Assembly (NCBI GenBank): GCA_003612335.1 | Contig: RAYO01000002.1 | Coordinates: 1-64,000, forward strand | Length of the DNA: 64,000 nucleotides | Source: a bacterium 1xD42-67 | Lineage (GTDB): Bacteria > Bacillota > Clostridia > Oscillospirales > Oscillospiraceae | Reading direction: 5' to 3' | Shown here: positions 436 to 6,702 of the stretch, piece after piece | How the letters are laid out: every line of letters begins with the position of its first letter | How positions within the stretch are numbered: the first letter of the stretch is position 1 | Notes under the pieces: model-generated | Databases searched by the model: none | Seen by the model: only the letters and a program-made list of their open reading frames with translations | What the model was told of the DNA's origin: nothing | Program-made: the position numbers and the translations under genes

Positions 436-531
436 TCCCTGAGAGCGGTATTTCTGCCGGTCTTTTCCCGCACCAAAGCCCCCTTCTCCACATAGTCTGA
501 GGCGTAATAACGTTGATACGGAGGGTCGCTT

Positions 532-855
532 ATGACTGCTTTGCCACATATCCGATATTTTCTGGGGGCCAACTCCCCCAGCGGCTTCTATTCTCTGTAC
601 GACCAGCTGATCTCCCCGGAGGAAGCCCGGGCCGTCTACATCCTGAAGGGGGGGCCGGGCTGCGGCAAGTCCACCCTTATGCGCAGGGCCGCCGCCCAGG
701 CGGAGGAGGCTGGGCTGGATACGGAATACATCCTCTGCTCCGGCGATCCGGATTCCCTGGACGCCGTCCTCCTTCCCGCAAAAGGCGTGGCCATCGTGGA
801 CGGGACAGCGCCCCAGGGCGTCGTTACCTTGGGACACTTGCGCATTTCTCTGTAA
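532..855 (+). pseudogene. P-loop ATPase, N-terminal fragment disrupted by the insertion
   Basis: ATG at 532 behind a GGAGGG site. Residues 1-91 are native: a Walker A motif GGPGCGKST (about residues 40-48) and a C-terminal ...AIVDGTAP. They match the start of a family of ~360-residue proteins with two tandem P-loop domains (PRK06851-like, unknown function). After residue 91 the frame enters the inserted element (QGVVTLGHLRISL) and stops at 855. The native continuation, starting TAPHVVEPKYPG, is at 5893 in the same frame, so fragment plus remainder gives an ordinary ~360-residue protein. Whether the short fragment is made or functional is unknown. Confidence 0.85.
805..815 (+). repeat. Left attachment core (attL) of the element
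   Basis: ACAGCGCCCCA, in frame as ACA GCG CCC (Thr-Ala-Pro) of the ATPase. It is identical to 5893-5903. Confidence 0.85.
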
Positions 856-866
856 TCTGATATACT
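838..866 (+). promoter_or_regulatory. Promoter for the HAD gene inside the element
   Basis: TTGCGC (838-843), 17-bp spacer, TATACT (861-866), about 20 bp inside the left end. Confidence 0.55.
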
Positions 867-919
867 GGCCTGGATTTTATACCGTTGGATCCAGCGGCAA
901 AGAAATGAGGAAAACAAGT

Positions 920-1717
920 ATGTATTCCATTGATCTTCAGAAGAAAAAGGGCTTCATCTGCGATATGGACGGCGTCATCTACCACGGCAATCAGGTCCTG
1001 CCTGGGGTTCCGGAGTTCATCCGGTGGCTCAACGAGGAGAAAAAGTCCTACCTCTTTTTGACCAACAACAGCGGATCCACCCCAAAGGAGCTCCAGCAGA
1101 AGCTGGCCCGCATGGGCCTGGACGTGTCCGAGGAGCATTTCTACACCAGCGCTCTGGCCACGGCGGCCTTTTTGAAGAGCCAGGCCCCGGGCTGCTCCGT
1201 CTATGCCCTGGGGGAGGCGGGCCTGCTCAACGCCCTGTACGACGCGGACATCACCATGAACGACATCGACCCCGACTATGTGGTCATCGGGGAGAGCCGG
1301 AACTACTCCCTGGATACCATCACCAAAGCCATCAACCTTGTTTTGGGCGGGGCCAAGCTCATCGGAGCCAATTCCGACGTCTCGGCTCCGGGAGAAGAGA
1401 TGACTGTCCCGGCCTGCGGCGCCCTAGTGGCCCCCATCGAGATGGCCACCGGGACGAAGGCCTACTTCTGCGGCAAGCCCAACCCGCTGATGATGCGCAC
1501 CGGCCTGCGGCTGCTCAAGTGCCATTCAGAGGACGCGGTGATGGTGGGCGACCGGATGGACACCGATGTGATCTCCGGCCTGGAGAGCGGGATGTCCACC
1601 ATCCTGGTCCTGTCGGGCATCTCCACCCCGGAGACGCTGAAGACCTTCTCCTACCGCCCGTCCATGATCCTGAACGGGGTGGGGGACATCGTCCGGGCCG
1701 CCAAGGGGGAGGCCTAA
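920..1717 (+). CDS. HAD-IIA family phosphatase (NagD-like)
   Basis: A 265-residue cytosolic hydrolase expected to dephosphorylate small phosphometabolites. Visible motifs are the HAD motif I CDMDGVIYHG (nucleophile Asp and acid/base Asp), TNNSG (motif II Thr/Ser region), a motif III Lys in FCGKPNP, and the metal-binding GDRMDTD near residue 205. The spacing fits subclass IIA (NagD/AraL/PNPase-like). The ATG at 920 is preferred to that at 905 because GAGGA lies 8 bp before it. It is the only rightward gene of the inserted element, and its stop overlaps the recombinase stop on the other strand by about 3 bp. Substrate not predictable. Confidence 0.85.
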   Translation: MYSIDLQKKKGFICDMDGVIYHGNQVLPGVPEFIRWLNEEKKSYLFLTNNSGSTPKELQQKLARMGLDVSEEHFYTSALATAAFLKSQAPGCSVYALGEAGLLNALYDADITMNDIDPDYVVIGESRNYSLDTITKAINLVLGGAKLIGANSDVSAPGEEMTVPACGALVAPIEMATGTKAYFCGKPNPLMMRTGLRLLKCHSEDAVMVGDRMDTDVISGLESGMSTILVLSGISTPETLKTFSYRPSMILNGVGDIVRAAKGEA

Positions 1718-3261
1718 AACCTCCAGGTCACCCTGATCTCCTGCCGGCCGGTATTCGGGTCCCGCTCGCAGACCTCGATTTTATCCACTAGTCCCACCAC
1801 CAGTTCCCGTGGGACGGTTTCCAGCCGCAAAAGCTCTTTTGCCCGCTCTATCAACTCGCCTTGCTGTTCCGGAGGCTCCCTCTCCGCCAGCGCTTCCCTG
1901 ATGGAATCAAGCCGCTGCTCCAGGCGGCTTTTTTCCTCCAAAAGGGACTGGTCCAGCTCCACGAACTGGCTCACGCTGAGGATACCGGCCACTCTGTCCA
2001 AGTACAGCGTTTTCAGCGCCTGGCTCCGCTTCTCCAACCGGGCGGTCAGGGCCTTTTGCTCCTGCTCCAGCGCCTCCCGGCGAGTATCCTTTTGCGGCTG
2101 GAGGTCCTTGGGATCCAGCTGATAGTAGGTCTGGACGTAGTAGCGGATGCGCTCCGAGATCAGGTCGATCAGCTGGTCCAGGCGCACCGAGTGCCGGGTA
2201 CACAGTTTTTGACTTCTGCTGTCGGCATACAGCTTGCACCGCAGATAGGCCCGCTTGCCGTTGGAGCACTTGCTCATGGTGGCGCCGCAGTCGGCACACT
2301 TCACCAATCCGGCTAACAGGTGGGTTTCCCCTGTTCCGTCCGTCCGGGTACGCAGCTTCAACCCCCGCTGGACCGCCTCAAAGGTCGCCCGGTCGATGAT
2401 GGGCTCGTGGGTGCCCTCCACTCGATACCACTTACTTTCTGGGGTATCAATAATAACCTTGGACTTGTAGCTGACCTTTCGCCGTCGGCCCTGGATCATC
2501 ACGCCCGTGTACATCTCGTTCGTCAAGATCCGCCCCACCGTCACCTTGTTCCACAGCCCGAAATCGTGCTTGACGGGATGGTTGCAGGTCCAGCCCTGCT
2601 CCGCCTTGTAGCGGGTGGGATTTGGGATACCCCGTTGGTTCAGCAGATAGGCGATGTTCTGCCGCCCGTGACCCTCCAGCGACCATCGGTAGATCTGCCG
2701 CACCACCTCCGCCGCCTCCGGGTCTGGGATGATGTGGTTTTTGTCCGCCGGGTCCTTTTGATAGCCGTAGATGGGTGATCCGCCGATGTATTTGCCCTCC
2801 CGCCGCTTCAGGTCAAAGACCATGCGGACGTTTTCAGACAGGTCCTCCAGATACCACTCGTTTACCAGACCATTGATCTGCCGGGCTTTCTTATTACCCT
2901 TGACCTCCGTGTCAGCGTTGTCGGCCACAGCGATGAACCGGATACCCCAGATGGGGAACAGGCCGTGGATGTACTTCTCCACCAGTTCCATGTCTCGGGT
3001 GAAGCGGGACTGGCTCTTGCACAGGACGATCTGGAATTTCTTCTGTTTGGCCGCCTCGATCATGCGGTTGAAGTCCGGGCGGTTACTGTCGATTCCTGAG
3101 AGGTCCTCGTCACTGTAGATGGCGTAGATGTCCCACCCGTGATCGATGGCGTAGCGGGTCAGCAGCGACTTCTGGTTCTGGATGCTCTCCGACTCGGGCT
3201 GATGCTTGTCTTCGTCCTCCTTGCTCAGTCGTGTATAGATCGCACAAAGGATCGGCCCCAC
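1714..3261 (-). CDS. Large serine recombinase (resolvase/invertase N-terminal, recombinase and zinc-ribbon domains)
   Basis: 515 residues. The N-terminal resolvase-type domain has the nucleophilic Ser in AIYTRLSKED (Ser13). A recombinase domain follows (about residues 160-300; GGSPIYGYQKD, then the PIYGY/ILTNEMYTGVMIQGR region typical of TnpX/Tn4451-type enzymes). Then come a Cys-rich zinc-ribbon segment (CADCGATMSKC ... CKLYADSRSQKLC) and a C-terminal coiled coil rich in Glu, Leu and Arg. It would integrate and excise DNA by Ser-linked double-strand breaks at short att sites. The start is GTG at 3259-3261, right after GAGGAG; initiation may be coupled to the tiny ORF just upstream. It is the obvious agent of the surrounding insertion. 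Confidence 0.93.
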   Translation of the reverse strand: MGPILCAIYTRLSKEDEDKHQPESESIQNQKSLLTRYAIDHGWDIYAIYSDEDLSGIDSNRPDFNRMIEAAKQKKFQIVLCKSQSRFTRDMELVEKYIHGLFPIWGIRFIAVADNADTEVKGNKKARQINGLVNEWYLEDLSENVRMVFDLKRREGKYIGGSPIYGYQKDPADKNHIIPDPEAAEVVRQIYRWSLEGHGRQNIAYLLNQRGIPNPTRYKAEQGWTCNHPVKHDFGLWNKVTVGRILTNEMYTGVMIQGRRRKVSYKSKVIIDTPESKWYRVEGTHEPIIDRATFEAVQRGLKLRTRTDGTGETHLLAGLVKCADCGATMSKCSNGKRAYLRCKLYADSRSQKLCTRHSVRLDQLIDLISERIRYYVQTYYQLDPKDLQPQKDTRREALEQEQKALTARLEKRSQALKTLYLDRVAGILSVSQFVELDQSLLEEKSRLEQRLDSIREALAEREPPEQQGELIERAKELLRLETVPRELVVGLVDKIEVCERDPNTGRQEIRVTWRF

Positions 3262-3265
3262 CTCC

Positions 3266-3379
3266 TCACCTGCGGAGGGCCTTGGCCAGCCAGGCGGCGA
3301 CAGCCTGACGGACCAGGCGCTCTGACGGACCTGGGGCCGGCGGATGGTGCTCCTTCAAGATCAGATCGGTCTCTTTCAT
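3266..3379 (-). CDS. Small 37-residue ORF coupled to the recombinase
   Basis: ATG at 3377-3379 with an ideal GGAGG 7 bp upstream; the stop TGA (3266-3268) is 4 bp before the recombinase start. The product begins MKETDLILKEHH and ends in a basic amphipathic stretch (LVRQAVAAWLAKALRR). Two roles are possible: a recombination directionality factor, or a leader peptide that couples translation of the recombinase. Nothing was recognised by similarity; coding status rests on the ribosome binding site and position. Confidence 0.5.
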   Translation of the reverse strand: MKETDLILKEHHPPAPGPSERLVRQAVAAWLAKALRR

Positions 3380-3424
3380 ACGATCGCCTCCAGGAAACTG
3401 TATGCGGGCACAGGGAGGGCTATG

Positions 3425-3454
3425 AAAAAGGCAGACGTACAGGACGTCTGCCTT
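3425..3454 (-). terminator. Rho-independent terminator after cca
   Basis: Perfect 11-bp stem AAGGCAGACGT (3428-3438) / ACGTCTGCCTT (3444-3454), loop of 5. On the minus strand it is followed by TTTTT (A run at 3425-3429). Confidence 0.85.
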
Positions 3455-3475
3455 TGGTTCGGAACGGTGAGCGCT

Positions 3476-4801
3476 TCATTTCCGGAGCAGCCCCAGCAGG
3501 ACCTCCCGCTGGTTTTCCGCCTCTCCGCAGACCACCCGCTCCAGCAGCGCGTTCAGCGTCCGGCCCACCTCCGGGCCTGGTGCGATCCCTGCCGCGATGA
3601 CATCCCGGCCGTTGACGGCCAAGTCTTTCAGGGAAAAGCACTGTCCCTGGGCCAGGATCTCCTCCGCCTTCGCCTGCAGCGCGTCCAGCTCCGCCAGCCG
3701 GTCCCTGACCAGCTCCCTGGCCTGTCCCATGTTGTCTGCCCGCTTGACCTCCAGGAGCTGGAAGAAGGTCTCGGGTCCCAGGCGGCTGAGCCATTTCCGG
3801 ACGGCCTGGCTCCGGAGGGGGATCTGCACGTCGTGGCGCTCCACCAGGGTGACCACCTGCTCCCGGGTCCTGTTGTCGAATCTCAGCGCCCGGAGCATCT
3901 CGTCCGCCAGCTTGGCACTGACAGCGGGGTGGCCGTAGAAGTGGTCGATCCCGTCTTCGTCGGTGGATCGGCAGGCGGGCTTGCCGATATCGTGGAGGAG
4001 CATGGCCAGTCTGAGGATCAGGTCGGCCGGTGCCGCCTCCACCGTGTGGATGGTGTGTTCCCAGCCGCCCCAGCAGTGCCAGGGGTTGTTCTGCTCCAAG
4101 CCGATCAGCGGCCCCAGCTGGGGCCAGAACTGGCAGAGCACATCCGGATACTGCCGCAGGACGTCCCCGACGTGCTGCCCCACCAGCAGCCTGCACAGCT
4201 CCGCATCGATCCGCTCCGCCGCCACCCGCTCCAGCATATGGCAGTTCTCGTGGATGGCCTGGGCGGTGCGCGCCTCGATCCCGTAGCCGAACACGGCGGC
4301 GAACCGCAGGGCCCGCATCACCCGCAGGCCGTCCTCCTGGAAGCGGTGAGTGGGCTCGCCCACACAGCGGATGAGGCCGGACCCGATGTCGTCCTCGCCG
4401 CCAAAGGGGTCCCGCAGATCCCCCTCCAGCCCCATGGCGATGGCGTTCATGGTGAGATCCCGCCGGGCCAGGTCGGCCTCCAGACTGGAGACGAATTCCA
4501 CATAGTCCGGGCGGCGGCTGTCGGAGTAGGGGCCCTCGGTGCGGTAGGTGGTGATCTCATAGGGCTCGCCCTCCTCCAGCACAGTGACGGTGCCATGCTT
4601 CAGCCCGGTCTCGACGATCCGCTGGCCGGCAAAGCATTTTTCTGTCTCTTCCGGGCGGGCAGAGGTGCAGATGTCCCAGTCGTGAGGTTCGACGCCCCGG
4701 AGCAGATCCCGGACACAGCCGCCCACCAGATAGGCCTCGTAGCCGGCGCTGGTCAGGGCCTCGAGGATACGCCGCGCTCCCGCAGGGATCTCAGATCTCA
4801 T
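3476..4801 (-). CDS. cca: CCA-adding enzyme / tRNA nucleotidyltransferase (class II, HD domain)
   Basis: 441 residues, full length. It restores or adds the 3' CCA of tRNAs. Visible are the class II polymerase-beta head LVGGCVRD, the metal-binding DWDICTSA, RRDLTMNAIA, and the LRVMRALRFAA neck; an HD-type domain HDIGKP follows in the C-terminal half. The ATG at 4799-4801 overlaps the upstream nucleotidyltransferase stop by 11 bp, so the two form an operon, and a strong terminator follows. It lies wholly inside the serine-recombinase element, which is unusual for a tRNA-maturation gene. Whether another copy exists elsewhere cannot be seen. Confidence 0.93.
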   Translation of the reverse strand: MRSEIPAGARRILEALTSAGYEAYLVGGCVRDLLRGVEPHDWDICTSARPEETEKCFAGQRIVETGLKHGTVTVLEEGEPYEITTYRTEGPYSDSRRPDYVEFVSSLEADLARRDLTMNAIAMGLEGDLRDPFGGEDDIGSGLIRCVGEPTHRFQEDGLRVMRALRFAAVFGYGIEARTAQAIHENCHMLERVAAERIDAELCRLLVGQHVGDVLRQYPDVLCQFWPQLGPLIGLEQNNPWHCWGGWEHTIHTVEAAPADLILRLAMLLHDIGKPACRSTDEDGIDHFYGHPAVSAKLADEMLRALRFDNRTREQVVTLVERHDVQIPLRSQAVRKWLSRLGPETFFQLLEVKRADNMGQARELVRDRLAELDALQAKAEEILAQGQCFSLKDLAVNGRDVIAAGIAPGPEVGRTLNALLERVVCGEAENQREVLLGLLRK

Positions 4802-5800
4802 CCCGCACCACCCTCTCGTTGACCTCCATCTGGAATGCCTCGATCCGGGCCAGGTCGGGCGTCTCCGGGAGGGATGTGTGTTCCTTGGCGCGATCCAACC
4901 GTTTTTCCAGTTCGTTCAGCAGGTCGTAAAAGGCGGAGTTGAAGGTGTGGTCCTCCTTCTGATAGCGCCCCTTCCGGATATCCATGAGCAGGTCGTGGTC
5001 CGCCGCCCGGAAGGTGACGATCTCCTCCTTCTCCAAAATGTCCAGGCACATGAGATAGAGGCGCACCAGGTGCATGGCGTGCTTGTTCAGGTGGGCATCG
5101 TCCTTTTTCTTGTTCCGGTGGTGGATCTTATCATAGTTCCGGGCGATCTCCGCCAGCTCGCTGACCATGCCGGTAAAGGTGCGCAGAGGGACCTGCTCCA
5201 TATGGATATCCGCCACCACCTGAGGATCGCCCTCCACATCGGCAACAGACAGTTTGATCTGCTCCGGAGCAAAGCTGCGGTATCGCTCCGGGAAAGTGGA
5301 GACGGCGTTCTCACAGGAGCCTATGATGTGCCGTTCCTTTGCCTCAGCGGGGTAGGCGTCATGGGCCAGGGCGTTCTCCAGCCGCCGGAGCTGCTGGCTG
5401 GCGTAGCCGCCGAAGGAGGCGGCCGCCCGGCGGGAGAGGAACATCTTCCGCTGATTGATGAGCTGTTTCCCGATGGGGTGAGGACCAGATAGTGCTCCGG
5501 CCTGCAGCCCAGCAGCTCGATGACGTTGGGGTTGCAGCTGGTCAGCAGGGCAAGGAGCTTGTTGAAGGCATACACCACAGTATCCGTCCCGGTATCCACC
5601 ACCTGCTCGAAGCTCCCCGTCCCCAGCAGGTCCGCCTTGCTGTTCAGGGCGCAGCCCCGGATGTCGATGTCTGAGCCCTCCACGTTGGTGCCGTAGGCAT
5701 AGCTGCCCCCATAGGTCAAAAAGATGATGTTCCGCCCCAGGCGGGGATCGGTCTTCAAAGATCGGTATCCTGGCCGGCTGAGCAGATCCAATATGAACAC
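4791..5800 (-). pseudogene. Nucleotidyltransferase (COG3541-like), frameshifted
   Basis: Two overlapping minus frames together encode one polymerase-beta superfamily nucleotidyltransferase of ~335 residues. The N-terminal part holds the catalytic GGSYAYGTNVEGSDIDIRG (G-S and D-x-D). The C-terminal part starts at PIGKQLINQRKMFLSRRAA and holds HLNKHAMHLVRLYLM. They are joined only if one C is added to the C4 run (G4 at 5475-5478 on the plus strand), where ACC CCA TCG should read ACC CCC ATC. This is a one-base deletion or a homopolymer sequencing error. The start is GTG at 5798-5800, or TTG at 5789-5791, which has better spacing from GGAGG. It overlaps cca and is read with it. Confidence 0.75.
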
Positions 5801-5842
5801 CTCCGATCTGCAAGATCCTGTATCAAAGATATCATCAGGGAT

Positions 5843-5871
5843 AGATTATCCGATACAGGGCGCCAAGTCAA
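5843..5871 (-). promoter_or_regulatory. Possible promoter of the nucleotidyltransferase-cca operon
   Basis: Minus strand: TTGACT (5866-5871), 17-bp spacer, TAATCT (5843-5848). GATAAT is the alternative -10, with a 15-bp spacer. The -10 match is poor. Confidence 0.4.
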
Positions 5872-5892
5872 GGGAAACCGTGTCTTTATGGA

Positions 5893-5903
5893 ACAGCGCC
5901 CCA
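5893..5903 (+). repeat. Right attachment core (attR) of the element
   Basis: ACAGCGCCCCA, identical to 805-815. Here it continues in frame into CAC GTG GTG GAG, the native ATPase sequence. Confidence 0.85.
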
Positions 5904-6702
5904 CGTGGTGGAGCCCAAATATCCCGGCGCGGTGGAGCGGTATGTGAACATGGGGGACTGCTATGACAAACAGGCCCTCTGGCCCCTGCGGCAGGAGATC
6001 ATGGACTGCATGGCGGGGTATAAAGGCTGTTACCAGCGGGCCTACCGCTGTTTGGGGGCGGCGGCGGAGATCATGGAGGACCAGCGGGCCACCCTGATCA
6101 CCGATGCCCTGTCTCAAAAGCTGGCCAAGCGGGCCAAGGGGATCCTCTCCCGGGAGGTGCCCCGGCGGAAGACGGAGGAGCCCGGCCGGATCCGCCAGCG
6201 GTTCCTGGGCGCAGTGACCCACCGGGGATCTGTGTGCCTGTACAGCACCGCACTGGCCCAGTGCGAGCGGATCTACGCCCTGTCAGACAGCTGCGGGCTG
6301 GCCCATGAGCTGCTGATCCACCTCCTGGCCGGGACGGCGGCCAGCGGCTATGACGCGGTGGCCTGTCCCGACCCGATGGCCCCTGACCGGCTGGCCCATA
6401 TGCTGGTGCCCCAGCTGGGGCTGGCCTTCCTCTCCGCCGCCGGAGAGCTGCCCCCGGAGATCCGGCCCTACCGCCATATCCGCCTGGACGCTGCGGCGGA
6501 CGGTGAGCTCCTGCGGCGCAGCCGCCCCCGCCTGCGCTTCGCCAGGAAGGTCTCCGCTGCTCTGGCGGAGGAGGCAGTGGCCTCTCTGGCCCAGGCCAAG
6601 GCCATGCACGACGACCTGGAGGCCATCTATAACCCCCATGTGGATTTCGGTCTGGTGGAGCGGACCGCCCAGGACATCTGGGAGGAGATCGCATCCTTCT
6701 GA
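5893..6702 (+). pseudogene. P-loop ATPase, C-terminal fragment
   Basis: 269 codons continuing the protein begun at 532 (TAPHVVEPKYPGAVERYVNMGD...). The second half of the family normally carries another P-loop. Here the equivalent site reads ALSDSCGLAHELL, so its phosphate-binding loop looks degenerate. A start at GTG 5905 is possible, but no clear ribosome binding site lies before it, so the fragment is probably silent. The stop is followed by a strong hairpin. Confidence 0.85.

Follow-up and report, generated by a model that had tools for sequence, protein, structure and literature searches.

The first 64,000 nucleotides of contig RAYO01000002.1 (forward strand, assembly GCA_003612335.1), hereafter the window, come from the Oscillospiraceae bacterium 1xD42-67 (genome G000 in our numbering). 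They contain a gene of the dwNTPase family (PRK06851) split by an element that measures 5,088 bp from core to core and encodes a large serine recombinase (LSR). The features that bear on this element are the following.

491..494, + strand: CATA of a -10-like element 5' of the dwNTPase gene (CATA in 39/39 genus genes)
532..815, + strand: N-terminal part of the dwNTPase (PRK06851) gene, residues 1-94 and the start of codon 95, with the Walker A motif GGPGCGKST (NF005320, E 1.4e-23)
805..815, + strand: left attachment (att) core, attL, ACAGCGCCCCA
1714..3261, - strand: LSR, 515 amino acids (aa), 3' end toward attL (Pfam PF00239, PF07508, PF13408)
3266..3379, - strand: 37-residue open reading frame (ORF) just 5' of the LSR, candidate recombination directionality factor (matches in 48/82 distinct LSR loci)
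3397..3425, - strand: sigma-E-like promoter, TCATAGC, 14 nt, CATACAGT, then GGAGG and the small ORF (motif in 36/47 loci)
5893..5903, + strand: right att core, attR, ACAGCGCCCCA
5902..6702, + strand: C-terminal part of the dwNTPase gene (residues 95-360), which has no start signal of its own (NF005320, E 1.1e-29)

The 11-mer ACAGCGCCCCA occurs at the two joints, as a preliminary description made from the sequence had reported, and it stands nowhere else in the window (expected number of copies 0.03; none of 100 shuffles had two). That description also proposed an exact in-frame split by a serine-recombinase element of about 5.09 kb. Both points are borne out: the joined flanks encode 360 residues without a stop, and the LSR carries the Resolvase, Recombinase, and zinc-ribbon domains of its class. 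The residues IVDGTAP do stand at the left joint, at 793-813 and not at 804-813. Of the two P-loop domains attributed to the ATPase, a canonical Walker A motif is present in the first half and none was seen in the second, unlike the dwNTPase family as described. In the alignments to NF005320, residues 8-95 of the N part (ORF 532-855) correspond to profile positions 7-94 and residues 1-265 of the C part (ORF 5905-6702) to positions 95-360; the C part is also a full-length match in the C-half model. The cut falls within the first P-loop domain. The 11-bp identity of the joints is local, as the two joints of relatives have about CCCA in common, or less. The LSR adjoins the N half in some genomes and the C half in others. 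Integration in either direction through a palindromic core was considered as a reason and rejected, since the core CA common to the joints is not palindromic.

The preliminary description would have been refuted had relatives lacked an uninterrupted homologue, and they do not. At the split codon, 42 of 64 genomes of the genus are uninterrupted, 15 are split with both halves present, six have a single half ending at the site (G002, G016, G019, G035, G079, and G083), and G004, with the far C end of the gene only, is uninformative. The uninterrupted set comprises 41 full genes and G001, in which a contig end cuts the gene, yet it is continuous across the site; G009, tallied here, also has a divergent C half adjoining an LSR. 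Outside the genus the split is rare: 4 of 73 other genomes of the class with the gene (G115, G148, G218, and G172 with the N half only) and 4 of 100 in an order-level sample (G278 and G296, and G276 and G249 with the N half only). These eight were identified by gene matches. Occupation of the site is recurrent. On a 61-row tree, 10 changes are required for the occupied or intact label, and well-supported branches force at least three of them. Up to both cores, the flanks of G007 and G072 are about 95% alike; per 100 bases, identity in the outer flanks is mostly 92-99%, dropping toward the far ends of the alignments. It falls at both cores and is lower on the element sides. The two genomes hold different but related elements at one site. 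The 18 elements with both ends range from 3.8 to 10.2 kb (median 6.4); with no more than 10 kb of flank per locus, larger ones are missed.

Both halves have been preserved as coding sequence. At 81 distinct loci we found 104 halves, of which 97 are complete in one frame, six are cut by a sequence end and one (L125) is partial, so that 97 of the 98 not cut by a sequence end are complete; they are intact in 28/28 genomes selected for having both. The median pairwise ratio of nonsynonymous to synonymous divergence (dN/dS, Nei-Gojobori) within the genus is 0.139 for the N half (17 sequences) and 0.219 for the C half (19 sequences) of occupied genes, and 0.183 and 0.288 for those of intact genes (22 sequences each), at a median dS of about 0.8, with pairs that are not independent. 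An in-frame start accompanied by a Shine-Dalgarno (SD)-like motif was found in only two of the 60 C halves that stand apart from an N half; the other 58 lack it. The N half reaches stops soon after the core in the junctions displayed. Because the halves are intact and constrained and the C halves are without a start, the ATPase product appears to be made, and hardly from the C half alone. This is our main argument for excision.

Rejoined junctions were found in other genomes. An uninterrupted gene stands on contig C2 of G003; its contig C4 has, beside the gene for CCA tRNA nucleotidyltransferase (CCA gene), a P arm, core and P' arm in succession. The P arm matches an attR at 26/26 positions, the P' arm is 96% identical to an attL over 24, and the junction adjoins a decayed LSR; it is a fossil left by precise excision. 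G016 has the same junction between two elements in tandem (98% over 46, 96% over 50), and L084 has a third one (89% over 38, 90% over 31). The junction of L110 is doubtful (one arm 100% over 19, the other E 0.05). These fossils in G003, G016, and L084, the open join of the window, and the complete and constrained halves support precise excision in silico, by a mechanism that would be as proposed below. With the uninterrupted relatives, they also support the earlier proposal that excision would restore an ATPase of about 360 residues.

A scan of named genome contigs gave 79 LSR loci, from the best 80 of 134. At 60 of these, across the Clostridia, a dwNTPase half adjoins a related LSR (43-89% identical), and the halves end or begin at the same model position and codon. 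Carriers include Flintibacter muris (L075, split gene; strain DSM 110149, a commensal that can be cultured), Colidextribacter sp. OB.20, Flavonifractor plautii, Anaerotruncus massiliensis, Clostridium magnum, and Thermobrachium celere. The 3' end of the LSR faces the att site, often at less than 200 bp; the LSR is antisense where it lies next to the N half and sense where it lies next to the C half. A HAD gene lies between the LSR and the att site in G000, G030, and G005, and the LSRs of L125 and L126 are also further off. The LSR shows a dN of 0.06-0.11 at a dS of 0.61-0.78 against 12 relatives in the genus (G002 was excluded as a remnant), with a dN/dS relative to G000 of about 0.1. Distances between LSRs follow those between ATPases (Mantel r 0.77, 0/2000, 26 genomes; within the genus r 0.84, 3/2000, 14 genomes). 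Strictly vertical descent of the pair was nevertheless rejected in view of swaps in G007/G072 and G025/G081, the LSRs of the latter being 97% identical versus 77% for the genes, and a mixed history was kept. A phage origin was not supported either: viral contigs gave one locus at 37% identity, and none of the 986 matching phage records reached 60%. No phage structural or replication genes were found among seven ORFs of the window and ten of G007, G017, and G034; the scanned ORFs include one tyrosine integrase and one IS1595 transposase.

Promoter-like motifs precede both the gene and the recombinase. CATA is present 25-90 nt upstream of the dwNTPase gene in 39/39 genus genes (shuffled mean 6.6, maximum 15), and we take this -10-like element to be of the type used by mother-cell sigma factors. 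Before the small ORF and LSR, the motif CATA-N14..18-CATA occurs in 36 of 47 loci, with a spacer of 16 in 30, against a mean of 0.15 and a maximum of 2 in mononucleotide shuffles; the whole window has 11 occurrences, one of them before the small ORF and LSR. The motif resembles sigma-E promoters. It is this motif that suggests that excision would take place in the mother cell during sporulation. The 37-residue ORF, for which no Pfam or NCBIfam match was found, has matches at 56 of 95 LSR loci, or 48 of 82 after dropping 13 double records, with a model seeded with 12 of these matching loci. In L033, L037, L039, L045, and L060 there is no small ORF and the motif is kept upstream, at a distance of 142-143 nt from the LSR match; the stretch between the two contains a short inverted repeat that is conserved, TGCCTTTGC ... 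GCAAAGGCA, perhaps a leader hairpin.

The interrupted gene belongs to a known sporulation family, whose role we take from the literature. According to parts of the respective papers, PRK06851 is the dwNTPase family (PMC10949312), and its Clostridioides difficile member CD3298/Cd630_32980 is required for dipicolinate and calcium in spores (PMC5509370, PMC10449524) and is tabulated with sigma-E in one table row (PMC3789822). The parts consulted of these four papers mention no interruption of the gene.

The dwNTPase gene is not the only split sporulation gene. The sigE of G000 scores above its cut-off, and its sigK is in two parts, matching positions 2-125 and 109-223 of the SigK profiles, about 57 kb apart on contig C10 (L150:572-1021 and L151:5877-6314, both on the - strand). 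The C part adjoins a gene for a 579-aa serine recombinase (L150:933-2672), and a contiguous sigK exists in relatives; the split sigK of G000 is a second skin-like insertion. Partial second sigK-like matches occur at other positions in several genomes of the genus (profile end 218: G004, G005, G010, G017, and G022); they are perhaps further insertions or contig ends. More distant kin of the LSR (44-48% identity) abut other genes. In two Anaerocolumna genomes (L145 and L148), the LSR has on its 3' side the gene for a CspBA-like germination protease, of which the C part is present, beginning at THVASIAAGNG (NF040809, E 3.6e-97 for L148; L145 is 90% alike). At seven loci of Faecalibacterium, Gemmiger, and relatives, the neighbor is a peptidoglycan (PG)-binding, weakly SpoIID-like gene, with both parts around the LSR in L137 and L139, meeting at residues 196-200, and one part beside it in L131, L133, L140, L147, and L149. 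We call this gene SleC-like, a label that no library gave. On an LSR tree made by a quick method and with long outgroup branches, the targets cluster, with 7 changes for 5 groups versus 14.6 after shuffling.

Very probably, the 5.09-kb stretch is a skin-like site-specific integrative element excised in the mother cell. The LSR would have joined attP to attB over the conserved codons VDGTAPH of the dwNTPase gene, which would stay in two parts in vegetative cells. In the mother cell, expression of the small ORF and the LSR would start from the sigma-E-type promoter, and the LSR, directed by the small protein or by another factor, would recombine attL with attR. If this copy is active, the element would leave as a circle and the ATPase of 360 residues, a member of a family that helps to load Ca-dipicolinate, would be restored, while the forespore would retain the element. 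The preliminary description had likened the insertion to skin and called it a reversible switch. The likeness is supported by the sporulation family and the sigma-E-like promoter; reversibility within a lineage is not, as by analogy with skin the excision would occur in a terminal mother cell and hence not be inherited.

Like the skin elements of Bacillus subtilis (SpoIVCA) and C. difficile (CD1231 and CD1234), this is an LSR element within the coding frame of a mother-cell sporulation gene, with the recombinase gene near an att site and a precise in-frame join. It differs in its target, dwNTPase and not sigK, in its LSR lineage, and in its size (3.8-10.2 kb in the 18 complete cases). In C. 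difficile, as far as the consulted parts of PMC5025042 go, excision requires the small directionality factor CD1234, under sigma-E and SpoIIID control, a precedent for the 37-residue ORF; CD1231 itself is constitutive, whereas here the motif precedes the small ORF and LSR jointly. The gin element of gerE in Bacillus cereus ATCC10987 is likewise a non-phage intervening element with a serine recombinase and short core; parts of PMC5595907 describe three recombinases, expression of its recombinase in sporulation, GirC as serine recombinase, GirX as factor, and a 9-bp core. It lies in another gene and another host class, while the family described here is found again and again at a single codon across many genera. 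The yin element of yabG in Clostridium botulinum has an LSR with the same domain set, a 14-bp repeat, and a detected excised circle, but is prophage-like and was found in one strain (PMC10747680, parts consulted); the present LSR has no phage record of at least 60% identity.

A selfish insertion might merely have broken the gene and left its halves as pseudogene remains. This would agree with the frameshifted RlaP-like cargo gene of the window, with L125 and L091, which may be broken, and with some genomes of the order and class that have no match to the gene. However, 97 of 98 halves are complete, their dN/dS is well under 1 and no higher than in intact genes, at a median dS of about 0.8, and the LSR itself is constrained; we strongly disfavor this explanation and consider it very unlikely. 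A shade more remote still is a split protein, in which the halves would act as two separate polypeptides and excision would be irrelevant. Both halves are indeed open and constrained, and the N half soon stops, but hardly any C half has a start with a nearby SD-like motif (2/60), the cut lies inside the first P-loop domain, and the rejoined junctions show that excision happens. An ordinary integrative element that excises for transfer, with no tie to sporulation and with a host gene so rarely needed that occasional excision suffices, seems improbable, if less so than these two. Turnover at the site (G007/G072), LSR pairs closer than their genes (G025/G081), and tandem junctions (G016) speak for it; against it, the element sits in a sporulation gene, a sigma-E-like promoter precedes the LSR operon, LSR kin abut other spore or germination genes, sigK is split too, and the few elements scanned showed no transfer genes.

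Several observations weigh against the skin-like interpretation itself. There is no dwNTPase half in reach at 19 of the 79 LSR loci, 34 of 82 distinct loci lack the small ORF (six of them with LSRs 86-89% identical), and 11 of 47 lack the promoter motif. None of the 64 genus genomes reaches the curated cut-off of NF005320 (556 bits), and the window gene is therefore assigned only to the wider PRK06851/dwNTPase family; its link to CD3298 goes through papers and NCBIfam profiles. The N half of L125 is matched only from position 30, and L091 carries two additional bases ahead of the core, which would throw the join out of frame. Parts of the element decay, as the broken RlaP-like gene shows. As for L091, its N half is among those cut by a contig end, and the locus is a possible exception to the precise restoration of the gene on removal.

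Beside the LSR, the element carries three genes.

905..1717, + strand: HAD-IIA family hydrolase (TIGR01460, over cut-off)
3476..4801, - strand: CCA tRNA nucleotidyltransferase, sole copy found in the genome (NF009814, over cut-off; one match in G000)
4791..5813, - strand: RlaP-like nucleotidyltransferase gene, frameshifted (N part 5321-5800, remainder in the frame of 4791-5813; PF10127 on 5321-5800 only)

Copies of the HAD-IIA gene, 95-97% identical, accompany the elements of G030 and G005, and another is on a G036 contig that also bears the CCA gene. Relatives keep an unbroken RlaP-like frame, for example, L033:8291-9307 (338 aa). Other cargo is diverse: flagellin, acetyltransferase, DUF4317, and resolvase in G034, IS1595 transposase and dehydrogenase in G007, and tyrosine integrase and DUF4143 ATPase in G017. 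The CCA gene lies within the element in G000, G007, and G034 and is linked to one end in G016, G005, G072, G073, and G002. That it makes the cargo essential, loss of the element with the sole CCA gene being lethal, was rejected as unproven: CCA is encoded by 32/32 distinct tRNA genes examined (taken from 30 loci among 46 tRNA matches), and 4 of 61 genomes of the genus, including two that are 94% and 98% complete, yielded no CCA gene. As the tRNA genes encode CCA, excision in growing cells may be tolerable.

The kind of element is known, the interrupted gene and the LSR lineage are new, and the LSR family is widespread. We found no description of an element in a dwNTPase gene in the literature, with subscription journals and preprints mostly outside the coverage. 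If our interpretation is right, a spore-loading gene joins the genes mended by DNA rearrangement, in many genera and at one codon, and dozens of LSR-att pairs of graded divergence at one conserved site would constitute a natural tool. For annotators, it would be a warning against taking such split genes for pseudogenes. Because LSR kin abut cspBA-like and sleC-like genes, the evolution of related recombinases toward mother-cell genes becomes testable. It is conceivable, at somewhat less than an even chance, that one LSR lineage has specialized in fixed codons of mother-cell genes (dwNTPase, CspBA-like, and SleC/SpoIID-like) as safe havens, the gene sets of mother cell and spore being different. 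If so, the gene would be mended in the dying cell and the element inherited through the spore, and such elements would pick up ordinary genes, in this case the only gene found for the CCA enzyme, giving a bacterial counterpart of soma and germ line.

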